Of a stretch of 46,213 bases of DNA, positions 2,798 to 45,351 are shown one piece after another. Within the stretch, counting starts at the first letter, position 1, and the number at the start of each line of letters is the position of its first letter. The notes under the pieces are model-generated. The model was not told the DNA's origin and ran no database searches. It saw only the letters and a program-made list of their open reading frames with translations. The position numbers were made by a program, and so were the translations under genes. Source of the stretch: a virus; IMG/VR virus record IMGVR_UViG_3300043411_000447, positions 1 to 46,213 of that record; one strand, written 5' to 3'.

Positions 2798-3008
2798 GTC
2801 TGCATACTGCGGTTGTGGTGAGTCTGATGATTTAATCCCATCACTAAGGCTCCCTCATTTTAAAAAAATCAAATTTTCTATACATCAGAAAGCTCTCATG
2901 TATAGCATTTTTAAAAAAGGCATGCAGAGACACTTTGATCGTGTCAATAAAGAGATTATTAGTTACTATTTGGATTGGAAAGCGAATGGCCAGTTTAAGT
3001 CGGGCTGA
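2790..3008 (+). CDS. Small protein between the terminase genes, unknown
   Basis: A 72-aa protein with a CGCGE motif near the N-terminus and a basic, aromatic-rich remainder. It overlaps the small terminase gene by 8 bp and the large terminase start by 23 bp, so translation is likely coupled. No family is recognised. Its place suggests a packaging accessory protein. Confidence 0.55.
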   Translation: MIKSAYCGCGESDDLIPSLRLPHFKKIKFSIHQKALMYSIFKKGMQRHFDRVNKEIISYYLDWKANGQFKSG

Positions 3009-3753
3009 AAAAGAGCAATTACTAAAACTTGCTCAAGAAAAGAAGAAACGCGAACAATATAATGCGTTATTGTCGTATTTTACGGATTCAGGAAGCAATG
3101 CACGGTCTTTATATCCTAAGCATATGCTTTTCTTTCAAAAAGGTAAAGAATACAAAGAAAGAGCCTTAATAGCAGGTAATAGAAGTGGAAAAACGCTAGC
3201 ATGCTGCTTTGAAATGGCTTTGCATTTAACTGGGCTCTATAACACAGAGCCAAGATTCCAGTGGTGGGAGGGGCGTAAATTCGAGCATAGCGTTCTGGCT
3301 TGGTCTATTGGGAAGACTCATGAAACGACTCGAGACATTTTACAAAGATATTTAGTAGGTCCAGTGCAAGACATAGGATCTGGGATGATTCCTAAAGATT
3401 TGATAGTAGATTACTCGTCAAAGCCTGGCGTTCCTAATGCAATTCAAGACGTCTACATTAGACACTCAAGCGGTGGTATAAGTGAATTGTCATTTAAGTC
3501 ATATATCCAGGGTATAGATAGCTTTATGGGTACAAGTCGTCACGTAGTGCATTTAGACGAAGAAGCAGACAATCCAATGATATATTCTGAATGCCTTACC
3601 CGTACGATGACGACAAATGGAATCGTTATGCTCTCGTTTACCCCTCTTCATGGGTTGACTGATATAGTTCAATCATTCTTATCTGGTGGCAAATTTCCAG
3701 ACACAGAGCCTGGATTCCCATTTTGTGGTGAAGTGACTCATAAACAGGAATAA
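2986..3753 (+). CDS. terL: Terminase large subunit, ATPase half (split gene)
   Basis: The 255-aa packaging motor ATPase domain. Walker A is GNRSGKT (residues 64-70), Walker B is VVHLDEE (about 187-193), and a coupling motif (LSFTPLHG) follows. I chose the ATG at 2986 because it matches the usual N-terminus; an upstream in-frame start at 2935 adds 17 atypical residues. The ORF ends in TAA three bases before the ATG of the nuclease half, in the same reading frame. In related phages these two domains form one protein of about 500 aa, so here a single in-frame stop splits it. Each half looks intact. Confidence 0.9.
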   Translation: MASLSRAEKEQLLKLAQEKKKREQYNALLSYFTDSGSNARSLYPKHMLFFQKGKEYKERALIAGNRSGKTLACCFEMALHLTGLYNTEPRFQWWEGRKFEHSVLAWSIGKTHETTRDILQRYLVGPVQDIGSGMIPKDLIVDYSSKPGVPNAIQDVYIRHSSGGISELSFKSYIQGIDSFMGTSRHVVHLDEEADNPMIYSECLTRTMTTNGIVMLSFTPLHGLTDIVQSFLSGGKFPDTEPGFPFCGEVTHKQE

Positions 3754-3756
3754 ACC

Positions 3757-4509
3757 ATGGCTAAGTATGTCGTTAACATAAACTGGGATGAGGCTGTTCA
3801 CTTATCAGCTGAAGATAAAGCCACATTGATGGCTTCGTACAGCCCGGCCGAACGAGAAGCACGAAGTAAAGGTATACCAAGCGTAGGATCAGGAGCAATA
3901 TACCCTGTTCCAGAATCTGACTTTGTAGTAGATACCTTTAACATTCCGCCACATTGGGTTAGAGCTTTCGGGATGGACGTGGGATGGAAAAGAACCGCAG
4001 CAGTTTGGGGGGCTTATAATTCCCAAGAGGATTGTTGGTATCTTTATAGTGAACACTACCGAGGATATAGTGAACCTTCTATTCATGTTAATGCTATTCA
4101 ATCTCGAGGTAAATGGATTTCTGGCGTCATTGATCCGGCTGCCAGAGCCGCTAAACGGCAGAGCGACGGGATAGCTTTACTTGATGAGTATATGGATTTA
4201 GGTTTAGATCTATCGATAGCAAACAATGCTGTTGAAGCAGGTCTTCTTGAAGTCTTCCAAAGATTGGCTACTGGACGGCTTAAAGTAATGAAACACTTGA
4301 CAAATTGGCTAAGTGAGTGTAGAATATACAGAAGGGATGACAAAGGCCGTATTGTCAAAAAAGATGATCACTTAATGGATGCAACCAGGTATCTAATGAT
4401 GTCTGGTATGGATGTTGCGTCTTTAGCGCCAGATTCAGACGAGGAAATAAATGGAAACCAACATGGACTTGATGCCGATGTCGGAAGAAATTCTGTCACA
4501 GGATACTAA
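3757..4509 (+). CDS. terL: Terminase large subunit, nuclease half (split gene)
   Basis: A 250-aa C-terminal RNase H-like nuclease domain of the large terminase, which cuts the concatemer during packaging. Expected acidic residues are present: D74 in GMDVGW, D126 in VIDPAA and D208 in HLMDATRY. It is in frame with the ATPase half, separated only by TAA-ACC. An AGGA sequence about 8 nt upstream of the ATG could serve for re-initiation, so the two halves may be made separately and assemble. Alternatives are a recent nonsense mutation, a sequencing error or readthrough. Confidence 0.9.
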   Translation: MAKYVVNINWDEAVHLSAEDKATLMASYSPAEREARSKGIPSVGSGAIYPVPESDFVVDTFNIPPHWVRAFGMDVGWKRTAAVWGAYNSQEDCWYLYSEHYRGYSEPSIHVNAIQSRGKWISGVIDPAARAAKRQSDGIALLDEYMDLGLDLSIANNAVEAGLLEVFQRLATGRLKVMKHLTNWLSECRIYRRDDKGRIVKKDDHLMDATRYLMMSGMDVASLAPDSDEEINGNQHGLDADVGRNSVTGY

Positions 4510-25330: not shown

Positions 25331-25558
25331 ATGTCATTTGATCTTTTAGGTATAGCGGTAACAATTGGAATTGCACTTTTAGGATGGGTGGAAATGAGAT
25401 TAACTGCATTAAGGAAAGAGCTTTCAGAGCAGATCGTTAATAAGCAACAGGTCGACGCTGTTGTTCAAGAGTCTATTAAAGAAGATTTACTTCGACTCGA
25501 GAAGAAGATCGACGACCTGACCGAGAAGCTTTTTAAATTAAAGACCAACGTACTGTAA
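25331..25558 (+). CDS. Small membrane-anchored coiled-coil protein
   Basis: A 75-aa protein with one N-terminal membrane helix (about residues 4-20) and a charged coiled-coil C-terminus. It has a GGGG ribosome-binding site and is the last rightward gene. The topology resembles small haemolysin-like/XhlA proteins or inner-membrane spanins, which act in lysis. No outer-membrane partner is evident. Its last 21 bp overlap the end of the convergent gene on the other strand. Confidence 0.65.
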   Translation: MSFDLLGIAVTIGIALLGWVEMRLTALRKELSEQIVNKQQVDAVVQESIKEDLLRLEKKIDDLTEKLFKLKTNVL

Positions 25559-25996
25559 TACTGGATGCCCTTCTGGGACTCCAATAGGACGCTCTAGGAC
25601 CTCCATAGAGCTCGGATCTATGAATTTAATAGGTTTTCCTATGGTCTTGGCATATTTAAGCTCAGAGAGCACTCCGTAAGACTCTAGCCAGCCTTCTGAC
25701 ATTAAAGTCCAGACTTCGTCGCAAATTGAGATCCATGTATAATCATCCTTTGCCCAAGTGTCAAAGCCATTATCAAATTGGTGAAACTTGGCAATCATGG
25801 AAGACATTGCTATCGGAAGCAAGAAACAGTACTTCCCTTTAAACTTCTTTTTCAACTTACCAGCAACTAGTGATTCGTAATTCAATCGTATAACCATTTG
25901 CATAGAGGCGTCGGAACTATCCGGTAAATGCGAAGTATAGGCATTTGCTAAATAGATCGGCTTCGCAAGGGTACGAGGTAAATTATGAGCTTTCAT
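25538..25996 (-). CDS. DUF1937 protein (nucleoside deoxyribosyltransferase-like)
   Basis: A 152-aa protein with the DUF1937 pattern: IYLANAYTS near the start, a central CDEVWTLMSEGWLESYGV segment, and AKTIGKPIKFIDP. This family is thought to be related to nucleoside 2-deoxyribosyltransferase-like folds and is common in phages, perhaps in nucleotide salvage or DNA modification. I start it at 25996, where AGGAAGGAG precedes the ATG, and not at 26017, which lacks a ribosome-binding site. It overlaps the upstream gene by 14 bp and ends the leftward unit. Confidence 0.78.
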   Translation of the reverse strand: MKAHNLPRTLAKPIYLANAYTSHLPDSSDASMQMVIRLNYESLVAGKLKKKFKGKYCFLLPIAMSSMIAKFHQFDNGFDTWAKDDYTWISICDEVWTLMSEGWLESYGVLSELKYAKTIGKPIKFIDPSSMEVLERPIGVPEGHPVLQYVGL

Positions 25997-26450
25997 GGCC
26001 TGTATCTCCTTCCTCATTTGAGGACTGGGAATAGAAGAACTCTAACATAGATGCATCTTTCAAATCCGATTGAGTAAAGAGTACTTTCTTTCTCCTTGTG
26101 TATTCCATAACTGCTCTTGCTGCTAAATGTAAAGCTGGATGTAATCCACTTTCGTGATCTGCTTGTTGTCCTACAGACATTTCAGCTGCATGCCTAAAGG
26201 CTGACGCACACATATCTTTATGAGAGCATTTTGATCCTTCCATAGTCAGCCAGTTGTCGGGGCCATGCTTTTTTGCGCCCATTGCGAAGACTTCTAGGAA
26301 GTCGAAAAACTCTGAAGGTATCGTAAAACCTAATGAGTAATAATGTTCAATCTTCCTGAGGACATCAGATGGGATGCTGCTATCCTGCCCGAAAAACTCA
26401 TCAATGTCTAGTTCAATACTTGTCATGGTTGAAGTTGATCTTGTTCTCAT
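25983..26450 (-). CDS. MazG-like dATP/dGTP pyrophosphohydrolase (DUF5664)
   Basis: A 155-aa protein with the all-alpha NTP pyrophosphohydrolase pattern: GAKKHGPDNW, a helix with FRHAAEMSVGQQADHESGLHPALHLAARAVM, and basic residues after it. This fits the DUF5664 family, which includes the MazZ enzyme of 2-aminoadenine phages. No PurZ-like gene is present, so here it more likely balances dNTPs or hydrolyses a signalling nucleotide. A GGAGG sits 6 nt before the ATG. Confidence 0.78.
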   Translation of the reverse strand: MRTRSTSTMTSIELDIDEFFGQDSSIPSDVLRKIEHYYSLGFTIPSEFFDFLEVFAMGAKKHGPDNWLTMEGSKCSHKDMCASAFRHAAEMSVGQQADHESGLHPALHLAARAVMEYTRRKKVLFTQSDLKDASMLEFFYSQSSNEEGDTGHESS

Positions 26451-26452
26451 TC

Positions 26453-27184
26453 TTAAGCCTCCAATGCAACTGTTTGATTTGATCCGCAGCTGTTACAATG
26501 TAATCTCTGCATTGACTTAGTTTTCAATCTTAATATTCCGTGTTTGATTAAGTTATCACTACCACATCCATGGCATTCAAAATCAGTATTAGCTTCAGGT
26601 ATAAGCTTCCGATCAATCACAGGCTTCAAACGGTTATAGATGCGCTCCAAGACGACTACATCCTGTCTATTGTACTTCTCAATACGTCTGGCAGCTGCTT
26701 GAGAGTCCTTAGGAGAGCCTAGTAAAAATCTGATCCAGTCCCCTGACTCTGGTTTTCCTTTCTCTTCATTACCGTCCAGCTTAGATACTAAGTATCCTAA
26801 TCTATTAGACGTGAATGCAAAGTTGCGGCGGGCAAGCTTTAATGTATCGATAGATGCTATTTTACTAGGTAACGGAGGCAGATTGTTAAGGATCAATCTA
26901 GTGTTGAATCTTTTAATGTCAAACTTGTCTGAGTTATGGCCTACGACGTAATCAGCTTTAATAATCTCTTGATAGAACCTTTTCGCAATCTTTTTGTCAT
27001 TTCCTTTTTTAGCTCGCAGTGAATGGACTTTAGATTCTCCCTCCCATTTCCACGCAATAGAAATCAGTTGCCACGGTACTATCACATTTTGATATGGTAT
27101 GGCCTCTGGATATAGCCCGAAAGACGCGACTAAATCATGACTAGTTTCAATGTCGAAAAATAAGATCTTTGCTTTTCGTGTCAT
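26453..27184 (-). CDS. DEDDy 3'-5' exonuclease with C-terminal zinc ribbon
   Basis: A 243-aa RNase H-fold exonuclease. Exo I is FFDIET (D11, E13), Exo II is VVGHNSDKFD (about 82-91), and Exo III is YNRQD (about 172-176), where Tyr marks the DEDDy class. The C-terminus has a zinc ribbon, CHGC and CNSC, about 25 residues apart. Likely roles are end-trimming, recombination or host DNA recycling during replication. It begins with an ATGA overlap with the upstream nuclease gene. Confidence 0.82.
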   Translation of the reverse strand: MTRKAKILFFDIETSHDLVASFGLYPEAIPYQNVIVPWQLISIAWKWEGESKVHSLRAKKGNDKKIAKRFYQEIIKADYVVGHNSDKFDIKRFNTRLILNNLPPLPSKIASIDTLKLARRNFAFTSNRLGYLVSKLDGNEEKGKPESGDWIRFLLGSPKDSQAAARRIEKYNRQDVVVLERIYNRLKPVIDRKLIPEANTDFECHGCGSDNLIKHGILRLKTKSMQRLHCNSCGSNQTVALEA

Positions 27185-27504
27185 TTGTTAATTCCTTCTT
27201 CAACTAGTATTCTTTCAATCCAACCTGACTTAATTAGCGTAGGCGTCAAGCGGTATATTTTCCATCCTTGGAGCGATGCTTCATTGTACTTTTCGCAGTC
27301 CCCTTCAAATCCTGCAGGTCTTACATGCCTGCCGCCTGCCCATATACCGCCTTCAACTTCTATTGCGATTTTTTTATCTGGGAAAGCGAAGTCAAATCGC
27401 CATCTTCTTGTTTTGTGGAATCTGTGCTCTCTGACGTACGACTTAACACCCCTGTCGTCAAGCACTGACTCAAGCCAAGCTTCCCAATCATTCCTTTGCG
27501 ACAT
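27181..27504 (-). CDS. PD-(D/E)XK / Vsr-like nuclease
   Basis: A 107-aa nuclease. D38 in RWRFDFAF and E49-V-E51 in IAIEVEGG form the PD-(D/E)XK active-site pattern, followed by GRHVRPAGFEGDCEKYNEA and a GWKIYRLT strand. Small proteins of this type in phages act as Holliday-junction or Vsr-like endonucleases; this one may fill the role of T7 endonuclease I. GGAAG precedes the ATG. The first 145 bp overlap the 3' end of the upstream exonuclease gene. Confidence 0.78.
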   Translation of the reverse strand: MSQRNDWEAWLESVLDDRGVKSYVREHRFHKTRRWRFDFAFPDKKIAIEVEGGIWAGGRHVRPAGFEGDCEKYNEASLQGWKIYRLTPTLIKSGWIERILVEEGINK

Positions 27505-28412
27505 AAATCATCTTCCTGTTCTATATAAGTATACGTACCAAAAAGTCGCTGATCCCAATTATACCATGTTTCACCACTGTTTCGCAATATCCATAGTAAA
27601 GTACAGACTTCATCTCTAACTTCATCTGGAATCCCTGCGTGTCTGAACTGATTAAACACGTACTGCCGTAGAGCTGGAACTGTATGCCGTTTACTGAAAT
27701 TTGAAGCTAAGGTTTTATATTTGTTATACCGTAAGTAGTGACTTACTCCTTCCGCTGCATATTTTGCAGCTAACTCAACCAAGCTTGGAATATTGTCGAC
27801 AGTATCGCCAGAAAGACATTGCAGAAAGAATGTACGATCTGCCTCATCTCTTGAAACGCTAGAAATATCTCTAGAGTTCATATTGTAATGCAAGCATGGG
27901 ATCATTAAGAGATCTTTGTCGATCGACGCTATAATCGGATTACCATGCTCTTTACGTAAGGTCTTCGATAAAGCTTGAATCCCTAACATATCATCGGCTT
28001 CCATGCCAGTGACAACTTCAGCTTTCCATTCCGTAACTAATAAGTTTCTGATTGCTTCGTATAATCTAGGTTTGTCTTCTGGACGTCTATTCCCTTTATA
28101 AGGTTGGAATTTAGCCGTTAAAAATCTGAAATTAGACTTTCCCGACGCTGTGATAAACATTTTATAGTTAGTCGTACCACAGTCTCTAAATATAGATTGG
28201 ATCTTCTGACGTAAGAGAAGACTAGCTTGGTCTTCTGTCCCTGACACGGTGACGATCCTAATCTTCTTATTAGGCATACCTAATTCATTAAATGCGGCTA
28301 TAGCTTCTTTTTTCGACTTATAATAATGCTCGTTAAAGCTGTAATAGACCTTCTGACAAGCAAAGCCTATTTGGTACGTTAAGATATCGCCGTCAATTAA
28401 GATCAAAGCCAT
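27360..28412 (-). CDS. 5'-3' exonuclease / flap endonuclease (T7 gp6-like)
   Basis: A 350-aa protein of the PIN/FEN superfamily: LIDGDILTY at the start (D7, D9), EADD (138-141), SIDKD (163-167) and GDTVDNIP (202-209) supply the metal-binding acids. Such enzymes remove RNA primers and degrade host DNA. The conserved part ends near residue 300. The last 48 residues, read through the beginning of the next gene in another frame, are Ser/Thr-rich and look like an unconserved extension. The ATG follows GGAG. Confidence 0.85.
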   Translation of the reverse strand: MALILIDGDILTYQIGFACQKVYYSFNEHYYKSKKEAIAAFNELGMPNKKIRIVTVSGTEDQASLLLRQKIQSIFRDCGTTNYKMFITASGKSNFRFLTAKFQPYKGNRRPEDKPRLYEAIRNLLVTEWKAEVVTGMEADDMLGIQALSKTLRKEHGNPIIASIDKDLLMIPCLHYNMNSRDISSVSRDEADRTFFLQCLSGDTVDNIPSLVELAAKYAAEGVSHYLRYNKYKTLASNFSKRHTVPALRQYVFNQFRHAGIPDEVRDEVCTLLWILRNSGETWYNWDQRLFGTYTYIEQEDDLCRKGMIGKLGLSQCLTTGVLSRTSESTDSTKQEDGDLTSLSQIKKSQ

Positions 28413-28414
28413 AA

Positions 28415-29962
28415 TTATGCTCCATCGTCATCAGAGTACACAATTGGTCTCCCTGTCTTAACATCAAATTCTTTGTAATGAATTTTGAAATACCCTTTAG
28501 AGTCCCATAAATTCTCGATAGAACGCTGAAGGTTCATTTTATCAATGTCTGGCATTGTCTTTGATGCATTCAAATGAGCATTTAACGTCAATCTCTTCGT
28601 TGTGCGATTAAAGCCTCCCACTTCTAACAATGGAAATTTCTCGCCGTCATAGAAATTATATTTATCTGATAAGATTCTTCTAATCATCTTAAACCCTTCG
28701 TCGTCATGAATACCGTCGACATTATAGAACTTAGATTCCTCAACTCCTCTGTAGCCATGGTCAACTAATTCAGTTTTGATGTGAGTAGCCATAAGCTTGT
28801 AATCCCTAACTAATTTAGGACTTAAGAATTGAGAGACTGCGGTAGAGTCGCTGAAGTTATAGCAGCAATCTTTAACTGCATCAAGCCAATTTGTTTCTAC
28901 TAAATCAGGGAAATAATGACGATCCTCATCAGTAGGCTTAGTGCAGATCCGCTTAATATCATGCAGTAAATTGTAACCTAAGTGATACGGGTTAAAATTG
29001 ACCCCCATTTCCGAATCATTGTGGCGGACTACACATGTATGGCTATGTAGAATCTCCATCATCCGGCCTTCGTCGAGCCAGCCTTCCTCAAATAAGTCAT
29101 GGGTCAATTGGTGGTGCCAAAATGAAGCCCAGCCTTCGTTGAGCATTTTAGTCATCATTTGGGGATAGAAATATCGCCCAATTTCAGCATAGCTTTTAAT
29201 GACATTCCGTGCCGACCGGGGAAGTGTCGGGGAATGTTCAGCTATGAAATCCAAAATGCTCAGAGACTCCGGGGCTACCTGGCCCGATTTCTGGGTCATA
29301 ACAACATCTCTGCCCAGGCCTAAACTATCAATCGAAATTGAAAACTCTTTATTCAAAGCCTCTCTAATCTTTTGAGAGTTAGCTTCTACTTCTTTCGATG
29401 TATGCACAGACTGATTTTTAAATGAAATCCCATAGAATTGTAGGGGGAGCAGTTGCTCGAAGAGATCCGTGATGCGATACTTCTTCTCTAAAGCTTCTTC
29501 TTCGTATATAGATAAGTTAGTTCGGAACTGCTTAAATAATGAAATAGCATTCTCTGCTTTGGTGTACTGCTTAAACAGATGATTGTTTTTAAAGAAAGAT
29601 GAATGTCCTACAGCTGCATGTGCTAGCACTAGAGCCTGCATAGCTGTGGAGTTTGTATTCAGTATATAGCATAGTGATGGACTTGTGTTAAAGATGACTT
29701 CGTAAGCAACTCCCATCTGGTTTCCTTGGTATTGCTTTAACATCTTTTCGTATTCCACCCCAATAGTCCAATGATCGACCCACACTGGAAAACTGCCGGC
29801 ATGGATATGTAGCATATCTTCCCAAGTGACAATTTCAAACAAAGGGTCGTAGAAGTCTATAGAGTATTTTTTAACAGCTATATTTCGAATCACATCCCAC
29901 ATGTCTAGGATATCTTTCGATGACCATTCAACTTTTGAAAAAGGGTTTGCTCGTTTTTTCAT
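28415..29962 (-). CDS. spoVR: SpoVR family protein
   Basis: A 515-aa full-length SpoVR/YcgB homologue (E. coli YcgB is about 510 aa). Family hallmarks are LAHAAVGHSSFFKNN (113-127), EGWASFWHH (276-284), NPYHLGYNLLHDI and a C-terminal LTLNAHLN region. The family is named for B. subtilis spore-cortex formation; in Proteobacteria it is usually encoded with prkA and yeaH and induced in starvation. Its biochemical role is unsettled. The ATG follows the YeaH stop codon directly, with GGGAG upstream, so all three genes are co-translated. Confidence 0.93.
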   Translation of the reverse strand: MKKRANPFSKVEWSSKDILDMWDVIRNIAVKKYSIDFYDPLFEIVTWEDMLHIHAGSFPVWVDHWTIGVEYEKMLKQYQGNQMGVAYEVIFNTSPSLCYILNTNSTAMQALVLAHAAVGHSSFFKNNHLFKQYTKAENAISLFKQFRTNLSIYEEEALEKKYRITDLFEQLLPLQFYGISFKNQSVHTSKEVEANSQKIREALNKEFSISIDSLGLGRDVVMTQKSGQVAPESLSILDFIAEHSPTLPRSARNVIKSYAEIGRYFYPQMMTKMLNEGWASFWHHQLTHDLFEEGWLDEGRMMEILHSHTCVVRHNDSEMGVNFNPYHLGYNLLHDIKRICTKPTDEDRHYFPDLVETNWLDAVKDCCYNFSDSTAVSQFLSPKLVRDYKLMATHIKTELVDHGYRGVEESKFYNVDGIHDDEGFKMIRRILSDKYNFYDGEKFPLLEVGGFNRTTKRLTLNAHLNASKTMPDIDKMNLQRSIENLWDSKGYFKIHYKEFDVKTGRPIVYSDDDGA

Positions 29963-31168
29963 TTAACTCTCCCTTCTCTTTTTGTATGTATGTGTGAATA
30001 TCTGTAAAATATCTGTGGAAATTTGACTATCTGACAAAGTCTCTATACGATCGCCACTGTAAGTTACCACGCTGATCTTTGGAGACTTGCCCATTGAAGA
30101 TTTTTCTAACCTTTCTGAGTACTGTCCTGTCGATCCTCCACTGTACGGGCTGTACCCACGGATAAATTCTAAATAACTTAAATGCCTAATCCTTGGCAAT
30201 AGATCTAATTTAAGTACTTTAAAAGCTTCTTCGACATCCCGGTCCATAATCACTTCGCCGTCGGAAGTCTGTGCGATATAAATGTTCCAAGATGGCTCTT
30301 TATATTTCGCTTCAATGCAACGTCTGATGGCATGGTAAGCCGGGGCCATCATAGTACCGCCACTTAGCGTCGTATTAAAAAACTGATCGTAATCCATTTC
30401 ATAAGCTTCGGAAGCGTGTTGAATAAAATTGACTTCCACTATCTTGTACATCTGAGACACAAATAAATGCAAAAGCATAAAGTAGATTTTAGAAGCGTAT
30501 CTCATTTTATCCGTAACAGATCCAGACACGTCCATAATACAGAAAATTACTGCTCTAGATTCAGCCATCTCGATAGGCTGTCTTAAGTTATATCTTAAAT
30601 CTTCTTCAATAATATAAGGGGCTTTAGTGCCGCGCTGCTCAGCGGCAACTTTCCTTGCAATAGCATTTTCCATTGTCTTTAATAGATTTAAAGAGGTAGG
30701 TGATCCGGACGTTGTATAACCAGCTCTTTGGAATTCTGTTGAGATTAATGTGAAAAATGTTTTTTCTAAGTTAGGCAATTCAAGGCCACTAAAAAGAATA
30801 GATAGAAATTCTTCTTGTGTCAAGATCATATCTAAGACGCTTTCTGAATCGCCTTCGCCCGAACCAGATCCTTGACCTCTTCCACTGCCTTTACCTGGAG
30901 GCATTGGAATCTTATCACCTTTATTGAATTGTTTATTCCCATGAATAATGAACTTATCATCACCATGAGAATCGTAAACTGGAGGATTCGGCACGTCATC
31001 GCTATTTATGATGATATGTTTTTTACCAGATAGACCATCAATACCAGAGCCTCTTACGATATCAGAGGCTTGGCGTTTTAGGCGGTCGCGGTGGCGGTCA
31101 ATCATCTTTTGACGACTGACCGCTTGACCTGACTTATGTGAACGGCTTTTATCTACGATACCAGTCAT
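29963..31168 (-). CDS. yeaH: YeaH family protein (DUF444, vWA-like)
   Basis: A 401-aa member of the DUF444 family (E. coli YeaH is about 427 aa). Residues about 85-110 are a Gly/Ser/Lys linker, as in the bacterial proteins. A vWA-like domain starts at VIFCIMDVSGSV; DVSGS (213-217) is a MIDAS metal-binding motif. SGGT and WNIYIAQTSDG follow. The C-terminal part after residue 340 differs from the E. coli protein. It lies between prkA and spoVR, the usual bacterial order. A GGGG ribosome-binding site precedes the ATG. Confidence 0.92.
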   Translation of the reverse strand: MTGIVDKSRSHKSGQAVSRQKMIDRHRDRLKRQASDIVRGSGIDGLSGKKHIIINSDDVPNPPVYDSHGDDKFIIHGNKQFNKGDKIPMPPGKGSGRGQGSGSGEGDSESVLDMILTQEEFLSILFSGLELPNLEKTFFTLISTEFQRAGYTTSGSPTSLNLLKTMENAIARKVAAEQRGTKAPYIIEEDLRYNLRQPIEMAESRAVIFCIMDVSGSVTDKMRYASKIYFMLLHLFVSQMYKIVEVNFIQHASEAYEMDYDQFFNTTLSGGTMMAPAYHAIRRCIEAKYKEPSWNIYIAQTSDGEVIMDRDVEEAFKVLKLDLLPRIRHLSYLEFIRGYSPYSGGSTGQYSERLEKSSMGKSPKISVVTYSGDRIETLSDSQISTDILQIFTHTYKKRRES

Positions 31169-31192
31169 GAGATCCCCTTCATCTCGTTATGG

Positions 31193-33103
31193 TTAATTTC
31201 GACTTACTTTAGCGTACCAGTCTGTCAAAATGGCTACTTGTCTTTCAGTATAGCCCAATTTTTTCATTCTGTCAACAAAGTGTCGGTGTCGTTTTTTGCT
31301 ATCATCGTCACCATGAGTAGATGTGGCGATAACTGGTAGCATATCTTCAATATTTCCAAGAATCTTTGCTTCGATGACATCCTTGATTTTTTGGTAAGCT
31401 GTCCATCTTGGATTTTTACCACCATTTTTAGCTTGATATCTAAATGCAAATGTGACGATCTCATTTCGGAAATCTTTCTTATTTGAAATTCCTGCTGGTT
31501 TTTCTACTTCCAACAAGAACTCATCTAACTCCTTCTGAGACATCATTAAACTTGAGGTTGGATCTTTAATCGTATCTTCTCTCAAGAATGCATCTGCAAA
31601 TAAAACATATCGATCAAAAAGATTTTGACCATATTCTTCATATGAGTCGATATAAGCCTTACGTAGCTCTTTATCTAAGAAGGCCTTATAATCTTCTAAG
31701 ACTAATTGATGAGCTGCTAAATAAGCATTTTCAACTGCTTTATCTAAGTTCTCTTTGCGGATCCTGTCTTTTAAAAGAATCAGCAAATGGACTGGATTTG
31801 CAGCAGTTTCTTCAATATCATAGTTGAATGTTTCTGCGAGCAGTTTAAATGCAAAACGAGTTGAGACTCCAAAAAATCCTTCTTCTGGCAAGCTTTCCTT
31901 AGCTTCATTCTTCAGCTCGTAAACTCCTTTAACATCGCTAATCTTATGCTTTAAATTTTCGCCATTGTAAACTTCCATCTTACGATTTTCTTTAATGTGA
32001 TTTGAAGGCTTTAATCTTGTCATCACAGAAAACTTGGCCAGTGTTTCCAGAGTCTTCGGAGCAACTGGAGAAGATGAAAGCGAACTATCATTTAACATTT
32101 TCTGATAGATACGACTTTCTTCGCTATATCGTAATGTATATGGAATCTTTACAATAAATATACGGTCAATAAGCGCTTCATTGCGTTTGTCATTGCGGAA
32201 TTTAGTCCACTCTGATTCATTCGAATGCGCTATAATCAGCCCGTCAAAAGGAATCGCCCCAATCGGCTGGGTTCCGTTATACATACCGGATTGAGTCGCT
32301 TCAAGAAGGGGATTTAGCGACTTGATTGGGGCTTTGAACATTTCTGCGAATTCCATCAAGCCTCGGTTGCCTTTACACAGACCACCACTGAAGGAGTACG
32401 CATTTGGGTCACTAGCATCTAATAAGCCAATCTGAGAGATATTAGCTTTGCCGACTAATGATGATATATCTTGATTATTCTCATCACCTGGCTCAACATG
32501 GCTAATTGCGACTTGATTGACTTCACTAGGAAACAATTTAACAACTTTAAGTTGAGAGATGTCACCATCAAGATCTCTTACCTTCTGAGCAAGCCATGGA
32601 GATGGTAAGACAGAAAGATATCGTGAGGGAATACCTAATTCTTCTGAATCGGATGTTGTAAATAGAGATAAAGGATTATCAAGAACTGGAGATCCTTCGA
32701 TTGCAAAGAATGGACGTTGCTCCATTAAATGCTTTAATAATCTTACAATCGTTGACTTACTCGATCCGACCGGACCTAAAAGATACAGAATTTGCTTCTT
32801 TTCTTCTAATCCTTGAGCCGCATGCTTAACGAAAGATATTAAATCTTTGATAGGCATTTCTAAGCCGTAAATGTCTTTAAATGTCTCGAATACTTGGATA
32901 GTTTCATTTGAGAATATTCTTGCTAATTTCTCATCGTTCTTTGTATCGACTAAAGTTGGCGCGCCAATAGCATCAAGTAGTCTCTCTGATGCTGTAGCAT
33001 ACGCTAATTTATCAGTCTTGCAAAGTCCTAAGTAGTCAGCAAGACTCATCGTCTCCCTCACTCTAGAAACTAGCTTATCACCTGCTTTCTTTAAATTTAG
33101 CAT
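31193..33103 (-). CDS. prkA: PrkA family serine protein kinase / AAA+ protein
   Basis: A 636-aa full-length PrkA/YeaG homologue (E. coli YeaG is about 644 aa). The N-terminal AAA+ part has HAAQGLEEKKQILYLLGPVG with Walker A GPVGSSKST (110-118), and EPGDENNQDIS. MEFAEMFKAPIK and LIIAHSNESEW follow. The C-terminal region keeps SYEEYGQNLFDRYV and EKPAGISNKKDFRNEI. In bacteria it acts as a kinase and possibly a Lon-like AAA+ protein in stress and nitrogen starvation. A GGGGG ribosome-binding site indicates strong translation. Confidence 0.94.
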   Translation of the reverse strand: MLNLKKAGDKLVSRVRETMSLADYLGLCKTDKLAYATASERLLDAIGAPTLVDTKNDEKLARIFSNETIQVFETFKDIYGLEMPIKDLISFVKHAAQGLEEKKQILYLLGPVGSSKSTIVRLLKHLMEQRPFFAIEGSPVLDNPLSLFTTSDSEELGIPSRYLSVLPSPWLAQKVRDLDGDISQLKVVKLFPSEVNQVAISHVEPGDENNQDISSLVGKANISQIGLLDASDPNAYSFSGGLCKGNRGLMEFAEMFKAPIKSLNPLLEATQSGMYNGTQPIGAIPFDGLIIAHSNESEWTKFRNDKRNEALIDRIFIVKIPYTLRYSEESRIYQKMLNDSSLSSSPVAPKTLETLAKFSVMTRLKPSNHIKENRKMEVYNGENLKHKISDVKGVYELKNEAKESLPEEGFFGVSTRFAFKLLAETFNYDIEETAANPVHLLILLKDRIRKENLDKAVENAYLAAHQLVLEDYKAFLDKELRKAYIDSYEEYGQNLFDRYVLFADAFLREDTIKDPTSSLMMSQKELDEFLLEVEKPAGISNKKDFRNEIVTFAFRYQAKNGGKNPRWTAYQKIKDVIEAKILGNIEDMLPVIATSTHGDDDSKKRHRHFVDRMKKLGYTERQVAILTDWYAKVSRN

Positions 33104-33122: not shown

Positions 33123-33701
33123 TTAGTAGTCTGTGTCTGGTAAATCTTTTATTTCAACATGTGCAGTCTTATCTACCGTTTCGCTCAGCTTATCCGCAAG
33201 CCATTTCGGAAGAGCTTTTTTCTGTGCATCTGTTGCGTCATCTTTATTTAAAACTAAAATGGTCTCACCTTCGATCGGGGAAACTAATTTCAATTGCGAC
33301 GAAGATACTTTTAAAATATTTGCAATCTTAGGGCTTCCGGTAGGCGTAAGCTCAACTTGTACTTGCACAGGGGCTCCCAATAAATCTTTAAGATCAATAT
33401 TTCCTGAGGTTTTTCCAGTTGCTGCTTGGACAATCTTTGTTAATGTTGATTTTTCTCCGAGAGAAGATGCTCCAGTTTTCGTTAGAGTCGCAGGACGATT
33501 GTCGGAAGTCCTTACATCTGATATTTGGAAGACAACAGCGATCTTGTCCGTAAACAGTTGCTTAGCTCCTGGAAATGTATTCTTTTCCAGCCCTATATGC
33601 ACAATATGTTGTATACGTGCTAGATACACATCTGGTGCTATTGTTAACTTGCCACTCGAACCGCCTTGACCGCCAATCTTCATCACTTGATTAAGTGCCA
33701 T
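33123..33701 (-). CDS. Probable ssDNA-binding protein (OB-fold like)
   Basis: A 192-aa-class protein starting MALNQVMKIGGQGGSSGKL, then a beta-barrel-like region: VYLARIQHIVHIGLE, DKIAVVFQISDVRTSD, an EKSTLTKIVQAATG helix and a VQVQVELTPTG strand, with an acidic C-terminal tail ending DLPDTDY. An acidic tail after a beta fold is typical of phage ssDNA-binding proteins such as T7 gp2.5. I start at 33701 after AAGGGGG. It lies between DNA polymerase and prkA. No residue-level proof of the function is visible. Confidence 0.65.
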   Translation of the reverse strand: MALNQVMKIGGQGGSSGKLTIAPDVYLARIQHIVHIGLEKNTFPGAKQLFTDKIAVVFQISDVRTSDNRPATLTKTGASSLGEKSTLTKIVQAATGKTSGNIDLKDLLGAPVQVQVELTPTGSPKIANILKVSSSQLKLVSPIEGETILVLNKDDATDAQKKALPKWLADKLSETVDKTAHVEIKDLPDTDY

Positions 33702-33712
33702 GGTAACCCCCT

Positions 33713-35653
33713 TTAATGCGTTTCTGACCAATTGGATCCGAATTTGCCATCCCCTTTCATAGGGCATTTAAAATTAAAAAACTCTCCTGCTTTTCTGATT
33801 GAATCTGGGACTATATTGCTTATTATACTCCTCACTGAGCTATTGTCAAGTACTTCAATCTGAAACTCATCGTGGATATTTAAAACAAATTCATAATCTA
33901 TCCCAGGTGTCAAGCCCTCCTTTTGTAAGTCACTATCTGCAATATACAAAGCTTTTTTCATAATTAAAGCGCCACAAGATTGTAATAACATATTTAAGGC
34001 GGCATGGTCTGATCGAACTTTTAATTTACGTCCATCGATTGCTTTTAAGAATCCACGCTCTTTCACAGCTGTCAAGATTCCAGATTTCAATTCATCTAAA
34101 GCCGGTATCTGATTCCCGTAGTTTTGTTTTAATACTTTCCCAGCAGCTACAAATTTATACCACATTTCGGGTCGATCTATTCCTTTAGACACAGCCCATT
34201 TCTTTATTTTAAAGACTTCAGAGTCCATGTTTGACACAAAATCGTCAAAGTCGTAGCCAAATCTATGCAAAATCTCTCCCATCTTAGGTGCCTGCGCTCC
34301 GTACAACATAGCGTAGAACAGCGTTTTAGCGCAGTCTCTATCGCCAGGGACACCGTATGCTTCAGCATTCAGAGTATGCACGTCAGTTTTGGTTTCTTTC
34401 GAACCATACAAAACTGTCTTGACAAATTCTCCATTATCATATTTTGCTAAGTATCCAGCTAGGCATCTTAATTCTAACGCATCCGCATCACATCCGAATA
34501 AAACCATTCCTGGAGATGCTTCGAATAAAGCACGACATTGCTTCCCGTAGATATTTTTCTCAGATGGTATCTGTCCCAAATTCGGACGGTTATGTGTAAA
34601 TCTGCCGGTAACCGTACCGTTCTGCACAACTTGCCCGTAGATCCGCCCATTCTTTAAACTTTTAAGCCAAGAATTCTCTCCTGTCCATAGCTTACCCGAA
34701 ATATTCTGAGCTAAATAGTACTCTTTTAACAATTCGACTCCGGGTAACGGGAGCGTTGACAAGATTTTTTCGTCTAATTTTGCTATGCCGGCTTCGGTGA
34801 ATTCTTCCGGCTCCCATCCAAGCTCTTTTTGCAGCCTGTCGGCAACTTGCTTTCTAGATCCAGGATTGAATTCTTCAAATTTTATTTTTGTAAATGTGCA
34901 CCCTTTGCGATAGCCGTATAGAGGACGATCAAGCTTGGGTGTAAATTCTCCTAGTGAAATGGCTCTAGTTTTAAATTGATCTCGCAATTCACTTCTCATT
35001 TTAAAAATCTTTGCATCTATTTCAGTCAACAGATCAATAGCTTTATTCTCGTTAAAAACAACTCCACGATGTACTTGCCTCGTAACGATTGGCGCTATAT
35101 CATGCTCTAATTTAATCGGTAATTCTGAAGTAACAAAACATCCTTTATTTTCCATTAAATACTCGTATAGCTTCAAAGTTACATTCGTATCTTGAATACA
35201 ATACTCAATCATATCTTCAGAAGGTACTTCAAATGATCCGGTAAACTCTCCTTTAAACTCTCTTAATCGGATGCCCCATGCCTTTAAACTGTGACCTCCT
35301 TTTATTTTATACTGCTCACGGTCATAGCTAGATATAGGCTTAGTCTCGTATATGTCTGGATAAAACAAGTTAGATAGAAGCAAAGTATCGATTACTTCTA
35401 TCTCCTTAAATCTCTTCCCAATGATTTTCTCTATAACTGGTAAATCGTAGTTTATAATATTGTGCCCTATGAGGGTTGATATTTCCTTGCATTTGAAATC
35501 TTCTAAGGATCCTGAAGCTAAAGGACAGATATTGAAGTCGTTTGTATAGACTTCAACTGAATTATCTTCAATATTCCGTAAAGCTATGCAATGAATTCTA
35601 GTAGCTTCTTTAAATAGCCCGTTGGCTTCAATATCGATAATGAATTTTGACAT
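33713..35653 (-). CDS. DNA polymerase I family (family A) replicative polymerase
   Basis: A 646-aa T7-like polymerase. The N-terminal proofreading domain has FIIDIEANG (D7, E9), LIGHNIINYD (61-70) and YCIQD (151-155). The polymerase domain has motif A DADALELR (389-396), motif B RDCAKTLFYAMLYG (439-452, with the Tyr typical of dideoxy-sensitive enzymes) and motif C HDE (594-596). It replicates the phage DNA with the primase-helicase encoded just upstream. I start at 35653 where GAGGA precedes the ATG; upstream in-frame starts lie within the preceding gene. Confidence 0.95.
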   Translation of the reverse strand: MSKFIIDIEANGLFKEATRIHCIALRNIEDNSVEVYTNDFNICPLASGSLEDFKCKEISTLIGHNIINYDLPVIEKIIGKRFKEIEVIDTLLLSNLFYPDIYETKPISSYDREQYKIKGGHSLKAWGIRLREFKGEFTGSFEVPSEDMIEYCIQDTNVTLKLYEYLMENKGCFVTSELPIKLEHDIAPIVTRQVHRGVVFNENKAIDLLTEIDAKIFKMRSELRDQFKTRAISLGEFTPKLDRPLYGYRKGCTFTKIKFEEFNPGSRKQVADRLQKELGWEPEEFTEAGIAKLDEKILSTLPLPGVELLKEYYLAQNISGKLWTGENSWLKSLKNGRIYGQVVQNGTVTGRFTHNRPNLGQIPSEKNIYGKQCRALFEASPGMVLFGCDADALELRCLAGYLAKYDNGEFVKTVLYGSKETKTDVHTLNAEAYGVPGDRDCAKTLFYAMLYGAQAPKMGEILHRFGYDFDDFVSNMDSEVFKIKKWAVSKGIDRPEMWYKFVAAGKVLKQNYGNQIPALDELKSGILTAVKERGFLKAIDGRKLKVRSDHAALNMLLQSCGALIMKKALYIADSDLQKEGLTPGIDYEFVLNIHDEFQIEVLDNSSVRSIISNIVPDSIRKAGEFFNFKCPMKGDGKFGSNWSETH

Positions 35654-35654
35654 T

Positions 35655-37271
35655 CTAATATTCCTCATTATCTGAGACTTTAGTATACAAAGACAGCTTC
35701 TCAGCAATCTCAAGTTTACCTGTATGGGCTTGGTATGTCAATGTATCGGCCTGGCCTACGATCCCACTAACTCTGTTCTTAAGCACTCGTATTAAAAGTT
35801 TATTAGGATCGTTGCCCTGCTGATCCCTTTCTAAGGCCAGGACAACGTCAGAAAGCTGCTCTAATGAGCCGCTGCCTCTAAGGTCTGTAAGGCTGACTTG
35901 ATCCCCCTCATTGTATTCCTTGCCCCGTTTAACGTGGACAGCAGCTAAGACACCGACTCCAGTTCGTGCCACAATGGAACGAAGTGCTGTCATGATTCTA
36001 TCAATATCTTTCCGCTCACCTTCACGGCTCGATTCTAGCCCTGATACTAAAATTGAAATGTGGTCTAAAAATATAAAATCGACTCTATAAGCTTTGACTA
36101 GGTATTCAACAATAACTTCCAATCTCTCTAAACTAAGTGATCCAAAATGTTCGTAAAATGTCATTCGATCTTTAAACTTATTTAAAGAAGCTTGAATTTT
36201 GCTGTCCGATATGATCGATGGGTTCTCTGCAAACTGATAAGCAGGTTTGTCATTATCTAGTGCAATGAAACTTTGGACAGTAAAAAGCATGTTTTCTTCT
36301 AAGAAGATATTAGCAATTCTCAAATCTCCGGAATTATCTAAGAGGTACTTTCCTAGCTGTTTCATAAACGTTGTTTTACCGATCCCCGATCCGGCCGTGA
36401 TTAATGTCAAACGCCCTTTATTGATTCCCCTGATCATTTCATCAAGCTGTGGGTATGGTAGTGGCAGACCTCTAGGAGCTGCGGCCTTTATTTGGTCTAA
36501 TGTAATATCATTAATAGTGACGATTCCGTCCGGCCTATATTCCCTCGCTGTAAACGGCAACCGTAGTAATTCAGGGATACGATCAGCTAACAGAAGCTCA
36601 TTTAAGTCTTTTAAAGCGGGGGTGGCAATCTTAACCCTGCCTGGCGGAAATAGCTCTGCGCACTGATTCACAGCAATTTGACCTGCTTCGTCATTATCGA
36701 AAGCCAATATAATTGTTTCAAATCCTAATAAAAAGTCTAGATTACGACGCATATCCGCCTCTGCTCCAGGAGCTCCGGTATTAACTGATACTACCGGGTA
36801 TTTTCCCTGAGTGACTTCTGCATATGACATGGCATCAATAGCGCCTTCCGTTACTATAATCATTTTATTATACTTACCAGACCACAGATGCTGCCCAAAT
36901 AGGCCACATTCTTTAGCTCTGCTGGAATTAATCCAAGCGAAGGTTTTATCGGGTCTTCTAATTTTTTGGGAGATAACTTCTCCCGAGACTCTATGGTGGT
37001 AATTTTCAATTTGAACTGGATTCTTAAAATCATCCAATCCCTGCATATACCCAAATAGTTCACAGGTTTCTTGGGAAATCTTTCTCTGAGTGAGCTGCGC
37101 AGTAGTTCCGACTAACAGTCCAGAATCCGCAGGTATGATCGTAGCTTCGCGTTTACGTTTAACTTTGTTAGATTCACATCCAGGAGTGAAGCAATATTCA
37201 GATCCGTTATCAAAGACTTTTTTGTTGTCTTTTGACCCGCAAGAATCACAGCTTTTTGTCTGTACGGACAT
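35655..37271 (-). CDS. Bifunctional primase-helicase (T7 gp4-like)
   Basis: A 538-aa protein. The N-terminal zinc-binding domain has C8, C11, C27 and C32. A TOPRIM primase domain follows (VTEGAIDAMS with E142, and AFDNDEAG with DND 192-194). The C-terminal RecA-like hexameric helicase has Walker A GSGIGKT (294-300), a Walker B-type FIFLDHISILV, and DLRGSGSLEQLSD. It unwinds DNA and makes primers for the family A polymerase. GGGG precedes the ATG, and the start overlaps the small zinc-ribbon gene by 26 bp. Confidence 0.94.
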   Translation of the reverse strand: MSVQTKSCDSCGSKDNKKVFDNGSEYCFTPGCESNKVKRKREATIIPADSGLLVGTTAQLTQRKISQETCELFGYMQGLDDFKNPVQIENYHHRVSGEVISQKIRRPDKTFAWINSSRAKECGLFGQHLWSGKYNKMIIVTEGAIDAMSYAEVTQGKYPVVSVNTGAPGAEADMRRNLDFLLGFETIILAFDNDEAGQIAVNQCAELFPPGRVKIATPALKDLNELLLADRIPELLRLPFTAREYRPDGIVTINDITLDQIKAAAPRGLPLPYPQLDEMIRGINKGRLTLITAGSGIGKTTFMKQLGKYLLDNSGDLRIANIFLEENMLFTVQSFIALDNDKPAYQFAENPSIISDSKIQASLNKFKDRMTFYEHFGSLSLERLEVIVEYLVKAYRVDFIFLDHISILVSGLESSREGERKDIDRIMTALRSIVARTGVGVLAAVHVKRGKEYNEGDQVSLTDLRGSGSLEQLSDVVLALERDQQGNDPNKLLIRVLKNRVSGIVGQADTLTYQAHTGKLEIAEKLSLYTKVSDNEEY

Positions 37272-37956: not shown

Positions 37957-37998
37957 AGTATAGACCTTAAATCGTTAGCTGCATTAAAGGAACCTTAA
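37957..37998 (-). promoter_or_regulatory. CtrA-box promoter upstream of the replication genes
   Basis: On the minus strand TTAA-N7-TTAA (37984-37998) is followed after exactly 21 nt by TATACT (37957-37962 on the plus strand). The inner TTAA then lies at about -36 to -33, overlapping the -35 position. This is how the alphaproteobacterial response regulator CtrA activates promoters. The identical geometry is found at 39285-39326 and 42639-42680. Binding by a host CtrA is inference. Confidence 0.7.
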
Positions 37999-38714
37999 CT
38001 TGGTAATTTAATCCAAAATATGTCATACATGCCGGTAAGTATATACAAAAGCTTACGTTTCTCGACGTTTGTTCTTGCTAGTTCAATATCCGCATCGAAC
38101 ATTGCTTTTATGACTCCATCGACTCTAGTGCTAAAAAATAATAATTCCTGCGCTCTTGACGGCTTTACTGTGCCATCAACTAGTTTAGCTACTAAATTAA
38201 AAACTTGAACTAAATCTCTTCCAGTCACTACGGTATCTGTCTCGAAGCGTATAGCGAAGTCTTTATGAGCATCGAACATAATCACATTAGACTCTTGATT
38301 AAAGCCTAGTAACTCGTACGACTCTCTGACTTCTATATTCATATCATCAAGTTCTTCATCTGAACATTTAACACTCTCACCACAATGGGCTCTGTGGAAT
38401 AATACCACGCCTCCGGCATATACGTGAACTTCGTCCGAGCTCGCAGCTATAATCGCAGCTGCAGAAGCTGCTTCTGAATAGACTTCGGAGACGACAAATG
38501 AAAACTGACTCGCTACCGCTAGAAAATCTTCCATAGCTGACAGCTGCCCGCCTCTACTGTCTGCTATTATAGTTAGAACTTCATGCTTGTTTGAAGATTT
38601 CATCTGAGATATGAGTGGAGCCATAGTCTCGTCAGTAATTTCTTCTGGAAGGATCACTGTCAGAGCCCAGGCGGGGCTTATGACAAGTATAAACATAAAT
38701 ACTAGTGCTCTCAT
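37995..38714 (-). CDS. Secreted ClpP-like serine protease
   Basis: A 239-aa protein with a signal peptide (residues 1-17, ending AWA). A ClpP/crotonase-type fold follows: LTIIADSRGGQLSAM (48-61, oxyanion-type GG), SEAASAAAII with probable nucleophile S84, and VVLFHRAH with probable H107. A candidate Asp lies near 162. The layout resembles ClpP and SppA peptidases, but with export to the periplasm. It may degrade envelope proteins or counter host defences. A GGGGG ribosome-binding site precedes the start. Its stop codon falls inside the CtrA-type box downstream. Confidence 0.72.
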   Translation of the reverse strand: MRALVFMFILVISPAWALTVILPEEITDETMAPLISQMKSSNKHEVLTIIADSRGGQLSAMEDFLAVASQFSFVVSEVYSEAASAAAIIAASSDEVHVYAGGVVLFHRAHCGESVKCSDEELDDMNIEVRESYELLGFNQESNVIMFDAHKDFAIRFETDTVVTGRDLVQVFNLVAKLVDGTVKPSRAQELLFFSTRVDGVIKAMFDADIELARTNVEKRKLLYILTGMYDIFWIKLPS

Positions 38715-39592: not shown

Positions 39593-40195
39593 TTAATTGT
39601 GAAGAATGTCTACATTAGAATCGCATCCAGGGCTTACTTCAGAGGCTGCCTGTAAGGCCATGGTAAGCTTTTGTTCTGGGGTCAAGTCTTGTGCTGCTTT
39701 TTCAAGGGCTAATAATGCGCCCCATGCAAGACTTCCTCCGCATCCTGCAGCGAACGGCGTGGATATCGGACACATCGCAATATAATCGCTGGACACATCT
39801 AACTCATAAAGATCACTTCCGATACCTACTAGGATGGTTGCCGATAAATCAGTGCCCTCAGTATGCTTGGCAAGCCTGAACTCGCCTTTATTAATCCATC
39901 CAGTTTTTCTTAAATGTTTGATATATGCAGGCAAGAATTTCGTATTGGCGTACATATACGTATCTTCTTGCTTATTGAACTTAGGCGGAACAAATAAGTC
40001 TGTAGCTGTATCACATAGCACTGAAGTTCCTGTACCCGCAAATAGGATACCATGTCGGAAGGTGATCTTTGATCTAGGAGAGATTTGTGCCTGCCCTATA
40101 TGCCATGAAATCCTGCGATCTCCTGCAAAATAAAGTTTTCCTTTGTGCTTCAGCACAGCTAGACACGTATGAGATTTGAGTCGATGTTTAGTCAT
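39593..40195 (-). CDS. HslV/proteasome-like Ntn-hydrolase peptidase
   Basis: A 200-aa protein aligning with HslV. Thr10 in SHTCLAVLKHKGKLYFAGD would be the N-terminal nucleophile after removal of a 9-residue propeptide. D26 is then position 17 of the mature chain, and K43 is close to the expected Lys33. FAGTGT and AAGCGGSLAWGALLALE match the HslV FAGG and GSGG loops, with Cys for Ser. No HslU ATPase gene is nearby. The start at 40195 is chosen because GAGG precedes it; an ATG at 40207 is upstream of that GAGG. Confidence 0.78.
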   Translation of the reverse strand: MTKHRLKSHTCLAVLKHKGKLYFAGDRRISWHIGQAQISPRSKITFRHGILFAGTGTSVLCDTATDLFVPPKFNKQEDTYMYANTKFLPAYIKHLRKTGWINKGEFRLAKHTEGTDLSATILVGIGSDLYELDVSSDYIAMCPISTPFAAGCGGSLAWGALLALEKAAQDLTPEQKLTMALQAASEVSPGCDSNVDILHN

Positions 40196-40209
40196 AAGAA
40201 GCCTCATTT

Positions 40210-45322: not shown

Positions 45323-45351
45323 ATTATATGCCACAATTAGCTGTTTGTCAA
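45323..45351 (-). promoter_or_regulatory. Perfect consensus sigma-70 early promoter
   Basis: On the minus strand: TTGACA (45346-45351), a 17-bp spacer and TATAAT (45323-45328), matching the sigma-70 consensus at all twelve positions. It lies just upstream of the first leftward gene and should be the strong immediate-early promoter of the phage. Confidence 0.88.

Follow-up and report, generated by a model that had tools for sequence, protein, structure and literature searches.

The YeaG (PrkA), YeaH and SpoVR proteins are widespread in bacteria, where both starvation and the stationary phase induce them; there is no consensus on their biochemistry. PrkA of Bacillus subtilis was earlier said to have protease activity. 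PrkA of Bacillus anthracis is an AAA+ protein for which, after purification, kinase activity was undetectable and protease activity negligible (PMC13001217). It has been shown that YeaG and YeaH of Escherichia coli jointly act as a metabolic brake under nitrogen starvation (PMC10954441); their cooperation in nitrogen-starved cells is also described in PMC4664914. In this study we analyzed prkA, yeaH and spoVR (the triad) in the virus record IMGVR_UViG_3300043411_000447, whose whole length of 46,213 bases is referred to here as the window. The triad is almost certainly an established phage system, and it belongs to the core of a single lineage of podovirus-like phages of about 42-49 kilobases (kb).

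All three genes are complete and full-length, as an earlier sequence-only reading of this DNA had stated, and the motifs which it quoted were confirmed by the open reading frames, Pfam and the translations. The Pfam scores of the three proteins are far above chance (Table 1). An intact Walker A motif (GPVGSSKST) is present in PrkA, DVSGS followed downstream by GGT and SDG in YeaH, and intact HAAVGHSSFFKNN and EGWASFWHH in SpoVR, where the conserved HAxxGH and EG[WF]A are found. The genes are adjacent on one strand, in the usual order and with short gaps, as in an operon: from the replication protein through PrkA, YeaH and SpoVR to the exonuclease the intergenic distances are 19, 24, 0 and 2 nucleotides, the zero being the tight yeaH-spoVR coupling noted earlier. 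The strong ribosome-binding sites also described in that reading are clear purine-rich sites 5' of PrkA (GAAGGGGGTCTTCATG), YeaH (GAAGGGGATCTCATG) and SpoVR (GAGAAGGGAGAGTTAAATG). PrkA passes the NCBIfam equivalog cut-off of PRK15455 (822.9 vs 576 bits); YeaH is below the YeaH and YhbH equivalog cut-offs (281.7 vs 396 and 152.3 vs 468 bits), and SpoVR is below that of PRK11767 (342.7 vs 679 bits). Judged by these scores, the window YeaH is a DUF444 family member diverged from both the YeaH and YhbH equivalogs.

A search with the window PrkA revealed many relatives among viral contigs, and about 20 uncultivated phage contigs were found to bear the triad in the replication region; in many contigs its gene order next to the replication and exonuclease genes is unchanged. 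Searches of all window proteins against these loci identified replication-module neighbors common to the window and L002, L003/L004, L008, L010, L022, L030, L053 and L078; more were added by later scans. Six whole contigs (46-49 kb) encode homologs of the portal, capsid and large terminase (TerL) proteins of the window, and mostly of its Hc3 and ejection proteins too. In the same six the triad adjoins the genes for a 5'-3' exonuclease (exo5) and a polymerase exonuclease-subunit-like protein (exoB), with the exception of L030, where it lies upstream of the primase-helicase. The helicase of L010 and L022 is of the DnaB type, and in L010, L022, L053 and L078 the family A DNA polymerase (pol A) has no BLAST match to that of the window; in all four the triad is nonetheless downstream of the polymerase. 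Where triad-less phages have a related polymerase, its gene is commonly separated from exo5 by a few hundred to about 1,500 bases; the triad therefore seems to have been inserted into a polymerase-exonuclease module that predates it. The location previously proposed, within the replication module and not at a cargo site, was borne out: the triad is mid-genome in an operon with replication genes.

Only three of 240 PrkA loci had neither partner, each with its sequence ending close to PrkA. A scan of viral contigs that used YeaH as its only query returned nothing, which reflects a limit of exact peptide patterns. A small PF18909 protein was detected in every one of the 19 lineage contigs with a triad that were tested vs 1 of 16 triad-less relatives, in several cases directly upstream of PrkA. 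It was absent from six phages with independent triads (phiYS40, MN1, Lalka8 and three huge phages), for which reason it was rejected as an obligate fourth partner; it is more likely a lineage marker of triad-carrying phages.

The inheritance of the triad follows that of the phages. A scan with a portal profile finds phages regardless of the triad, and among the 23 longer contigs examined from it PrkA was present in three and SpoVR in the same three; triad presence is all-or-none among these portal relatives. On a portal tree of 34 phages, triad presence required two changes, vs a mean of 11.1 for shuffled labels, and none of 500 shuffles was as low; most of the 14 triad carriers had entered via triad searches, so that the tree shows clustering and not frequency. 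The lone exception in the triad part of the tree is G369, a contig of 30.7 kb which may be incomplete. Because a strict single triad clade was marginally rejected (approximately unbiased [AU] test, p 0.037), a deep gain with one loss and two separate gains are both possible. Presence or absence of the triad tracks the phage phylogeny, and loss in close relatives without other change, which the earlier reading had named as a refuting outcome, did not occur.

The PrkA tree grouped the window with L002, L003 and L008 (98/90), with no bacterial sequence inside, and 14 further phage sequences formed a second, equally bacteria-free clade (100/98). Joining both clades with L030 and L220 did not make the fit significantly worse (AU p 0.48); a single origin of all 20 phage PrkAs is neither shown nor rejected. 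The SpoVR tree recovered an identical phage-only clade for the window (0.978), and 18 phage sequences formed one clade in the YeaH tree (0.851). The window PrkA is 53% identical to the best bacterial relative found vs 56-58% to those of phages L002 and L004. Bacterial sampling was mainly of Pseudomonadota, with other phyla barely covered; in 148 Bacteroidota genomes, PrkA was found only in the genome at the center of the search. The searches and trees which the sequence-only reading had called for thus support an established viral system, with phage-restricted clades and shared neighbors, and the genes of the window did not nest within one host genus. The mid-genome site, the structural module in common with relatives and the portal tree rule out host contamination or a contig-end artefact for the window. 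A recent transfer out of a single host genus was likewise rejected for the window; it is true for L006 and probably for the Enterobacter phage LAU1 discussed below. L006 (3300025141_001261) is a phage contig with Hc3 and ejection homologs whose PrkA nests among Gammaproteobacteria, a placement that marks its triad as a separate, recent capture from that class.

For phage pairs of 53-92% protein identity, pN (nonsynonymous differences) was 0.08-0.31 and pS (synonymous differences) 0.71-0.92 over all three genes; synonymous change is saturated in the informative pairs, which makes omega (dN/dS) unreliable as a number and leaves the strong inequality only. Since synonymous sites are saturated while the proteins are conserved, the comparison points to clear purifying selection on each of PrkA, YeaH and SpoVR, the kind of signal by which the earlier reading had proposed to show that all three are maintained. 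PrkA changes slowest and YeaH fastest.

The predicted SpoVR fold is confident (predicted local distance difference test, pLDDT, 86.8). Residues H64, H115, H120 and E276 are invariant in 79 phage and bacterial sequences, and in the predicted model these His and Glu residues are found mostly on two helices of the core. SpoVR is probably a metal-dependent enzyme. The predicted fold of YeaH (pLDDT 81) is a VWA domain with extensions, with VWA matches at probability 1.0 that include the MIDAS domains of MDN1 and Rea1; its own MIDAS residues (DxSxS at 213-217, T272 and D303) are invariant in 66 sequences. A distant solved relative of PrkA is PDB 9xip, a "serine protein kinase," and the similarity of PrkA to RavA is weak (E 0.007). 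In view of these matches, the most economical architecture would be an AAA+ motor that works on a third protein together with a MIDAS partner. We infer that the phage triad is an active rather than a dominant-negative copy, because the catalytic-looking residues are invariant in phage and bacteria alike.

Long inserts were observed in about ten SpoVR loci, from phages and one bacterial metagenome-assembled genome, and in no PrkA or YeaH. The first was noticed by alignment in the SpoVR of L078, between EGWA and xF. Cleanly placed inserts occur in eight loci (L005, L038, L078, L087, L220, L241, L243 and L331) at five sites (Table 1), L087 having two; the inserts of L086 and L109 could not be placed and were left out of the site list. 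The insert ends are intein-like, with Cys as the first residue, Asn as the last, Cys, Ser or Thr as the next residue and often TxxH. A Hint domain in L078 SpoVR was not reported by Pfam at E 0.01, and the inserts are called intein-like on sequence signatures. Inteins prefer conserved, functionally critical sites, and the invaded SpoVR motifs are therefore likely to be the active center.

The explanation that we favor, with somewhat less than even confidence in it as a whole, is that a virus-owned, active PrkA-YeaH-SpoVR complex imposes a YeaGH-type quiescence and is a core trait of the phage lineage. PrkA would be the AAA+ motor and YeaH its VWA/MIDAS partner, after the MoxR/VWA and Rea1/MIDAS machines, and the two would remodel or activate SpoVR, the probable metal-dependent enzyme. 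Produced alongside the replication enzymes, the complex would drive the infected cell into a quiescent, resource-sparing state, in which nucleotides and energy would become available for phage DNA in slow-growing or starving hosts. This physiological role, quiescence during replication, is possible rather than probable. It had been suggested from the sequence that the phage keeps starved cells productive, or reprograms phosphorylation and proteolysis; a metabolic brake would be close to the opposite of the former, and the latter is not supported by the activities of purified B. anthracis PrkA (PMC13001217).

Several observations weigh against a quiescence machine. The host may or may not have a triad of its own (PrkA was found in 80 of 299 sampled Pseudomonadota). 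Quiescence would be transferred from E. coli proteins only about half (PrkA) or a third (YeaH) identical, and the function may have shifted, given that YeaH and SpoVR miss their equivalog cut-offs. Both PrkA and SpoVR are missing from 20 of the 23 portal relatives. Function could not be assigned to SpoVR by fold: the model is good, yet it has no structural match in PDB at E below 0.001, and no PDB sequence relative was found.

The gene position alone suggests a different role, unconnected with host starvation: the triad would itself take part in replicating phage DNA or supplying nucleotides, through replisome remodeling or through a SpoVR that modifies nucleotides. It regularly has pol A, exo5, exoB and nucleotide-metabolism-like genes close by, also where the polymerase is of another subtype; every lineage triad contig tested has the PF18909 protein; and the independent triads of phiYS40 and MN1 also adjoin dNMP kinase or dCTP deaminase genes. 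However, position says little where phage early genes of all kinds are located, many relatives have no triad, and the phages with independent triads do without PF18909. The triad of Lalka8 is flanked by portal, minor head protein and TerL genes, and the bacterial homologs are stress genes. Direct replication work appears doubtful. Also unlikely is a reading in which the triad is basically an AAA+/VWA/metalloenzyme machine directed at nucleic acids or nucleotides, made part of the replication core by small phages, with the bacterial starvation role as one use of it.

Counter-defense or host takeover, with PrkA and YeaH unfolding or inactivating a host factor and SpoVR as the effector, would be in line with the early-strand location, the AAA+ plus adaptor architecture, the patchy spread over phage lineages and the presence of HslV-like and ClpP-like proteins in the early region. 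We consider it improbable: the residues are conserved with bacterial housekeeping copies, and slow protein evolution under purifying selection is atypical for anti-defense genes. PADLOC matched none of the eight proteins tested, and a defense system was rejected on the same result. Passenger cargo, meaning recently acquired host genes or a stretch of host DNA at the end of a contig that does nothing for the phage, does occur, as LAU1 (yeaGH at the record end) and L006 show. For the window it is scarcely credible, being refuted by the gene and portal trees: the triad is mid-genome in a replication operon, in deep phage-only clades, tracks the portal tree and is under purifying selection. The quiescence machine is thus favored over direct replication work, counter-defense and passenger cargo. 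A triad kept minimal, diverged and motif-intact within 46 kb beside replication genes narrows the possible substrates, and it could be a compact reagent for the reconstitution and knock-out of a bacterial starvation machine.

The first and last 127 bases of the record are identical, and it is therefore probably complete. Identical ends were also found in three relatives; because their length is again exactly 127 bases, the repeat looks like an assembler overlap on a circular contig and not a biological terminal repeat. The early genes on the minus strand, from the primase-helicase through the deoxyribosyltransferase-like gene and including the triad, lie in tandem, either slightly overlapping or with small gaps between them (Table 1). 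The neighbor upstream of PrkA, previously taken for a single-stranded-DNA-binding protein, is not recognizable as one: Pfam gave no match for it, and it is similar to the NCBIfam model NF046043 ("phage replication initiation protein, NGO0469 family"; 68 bits, just below the cut-off of 75).

Table 1. Genes and promoter match in the window, and insert sites in SpoVR homologs (numbered by window SpoVR residues)
Feature	Position	Strand	Evidence or remarks
PrkA (YeaG-type AAA+ ATPase + PrkA C-terminal domain), 636 amino acids	31193..33103	-	AAA_PrkA PF08298 2.6e-140, PF06798 1.3e-51
YeaH/DUF444 protein with VWA domain, 401 amino acids	29963..31168	-	PF04285 8.8e-84
SpoVR, 515 amino acids	28415..29962	-	PF04293 3.1e-88
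T7-type primase-helicase	35655..37271	-	PF03796 3e-23, PF21268 3.5e-11, phrog_239 2e-147
Family A DNA polymerase	33713..35713	-	PF00476 4.6e-37, phrog_17 1e-116
NGO0469-like phage replication protein	33123..33767	-	NF046043 E 6.5e-19; phrog_862 (unknown function)
5'-3' exonuclease (exo5)	27360..28412	-	phrog_107 1.3e-41; 3' of triad in many relatives
phrog_503-like protein	27181..27504	-	
DNA polymerase exonuclease-subunit-like protein (exoB)	26453..27184	-	phrog_403 7.6e-59
Small PF18909 (dGTP_diPhyd_N) protein	25983..26450	-	PF18909 2.5e-11
Nucleoside-deoxyribosyltransferase-like protein	25538..26017	-	
Putative sigma-70-type promoter (TTGACA-16-TATAAT)	33822..33849	-	12/12 consensus match; inside 3' end of polymerase gene
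SpoVR insert site	after residue 54		L005, L220
SpoVR insert site	about residue 121, between GHS and SFFKNN		L087
SpoVR insert site	after residue 270		L241, L243
SpoVR insert site	after residue 277		L038, L331, L087
SpoVR insert site	after residue 279		L078

The perfect sigma-70-type match, a consensus match only, is just upstream of the cassette of replication protein and triad; no 12/12 match was observed in 60 simulated sequences of equal dinucleotide make-up. A conserved promoter 5' of the triad was rejected: the match is perfect in the window, near-perfect at a comparable spot in L003 and L004, and not found in most relatives. Further perfect or near-perfect matches are located at 45351 (-), at the start of the early strand, and at 31275-31247 (-), before yeaH. 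TerL is in two halves, ATPase (2935-3753, +) and nuclease (3757-4509, +), in the same frame and parted by a stop codon and three bases; L002 (G001) has the same two halves about 360 bases apart, and other relatives a single open reading frame. The early region also encodes an HslV-like peptidase (39593-40207, -) and a ClpP-like protein (37995-38714, -), and homologs of the former were detected in G001 (8.8e-37) and G008.

The window shares three families, gene order and motifs with the bacterial prkA-yeaH-spoVR operon, which is contiguous in L090, for example. It differs from it in that the phage copies form separate clades, with PrkA at most 53% identical to the nearest bacteria found, and lie among pol A and exonuclease genes. 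Unlike in the window, the gene after yeaGH in E. coli K-12 is cdgI, not spoVR. RavA-ViaA and other MoxR AAA+/VWA pairs, as well as the MIDAS of Rea1/MDN1, pair an AAA+ motor with a VWA/MIDAS protein, as the triad may do; PrkA, however, is an AAA+ family of its own with a C-terminal PrkA domain, and the parallel would be one of working and not of membership.

Among isolated phages, the Thermus phages phiYS40, MN1 and Lalka8 have an annotated cluster of a DUF444-type protein, SpoVR and a serine kinase. Unlike in the window, the order is YeaH-SpoVR-PrkA, PrkA is about 27-30% identical, and the genes are near TerL or nucleotide-metabolism genes, as an independent lineage. A PrkA family protein (ORF30) and SpoVR (ORF28) are annotated in the Ralstonia jumbo phage RsoM2USA, a 344 kb myovirus with a latent period of 270 minutes; in the accessible text the pair is not treated as a system (PMC8504454). 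All three genes are found in the huge uncultured phages LR745206, LR756502, LR756504 and LR756511 (about 595-642 kb), near one another except in LR756502, where SpoVR is about 240 kb from PrkA-YeaH. The PrkAs of the other three, those put on trees, fall outside the clade of the window, and the SpoVR of LR756504 has an intein-like insert. Enterobacter phage LAU1 (MN688132.1, 1-3308, L335) has YeaG and YeaH annotated at the record end; its YeaG shares a cluster (92% or more) with yeaG of E. coli, and the two are probably host flank rather than phage genes.

In viromes of oxygen-minimum zones spoVR is reported to be the most abundant sporulation-type viral auxiliary gene, and it was read as promoting sporulation, with no mention of PrkA or YeaG (PMC8940887). 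Our comparison suggests that such "sporulation" genes can be one of three components of a machine, in phages that have no evident spore link. No paper treating the three as a phage system was found among open-licence papers. Phage triads were known before, as annotated in phiYS40, and the replication-module lineage appears to be undescribed; surprising here are the placement in the replication module, the lineage-wide inheritance and the intein-like invasion of SpoVR.

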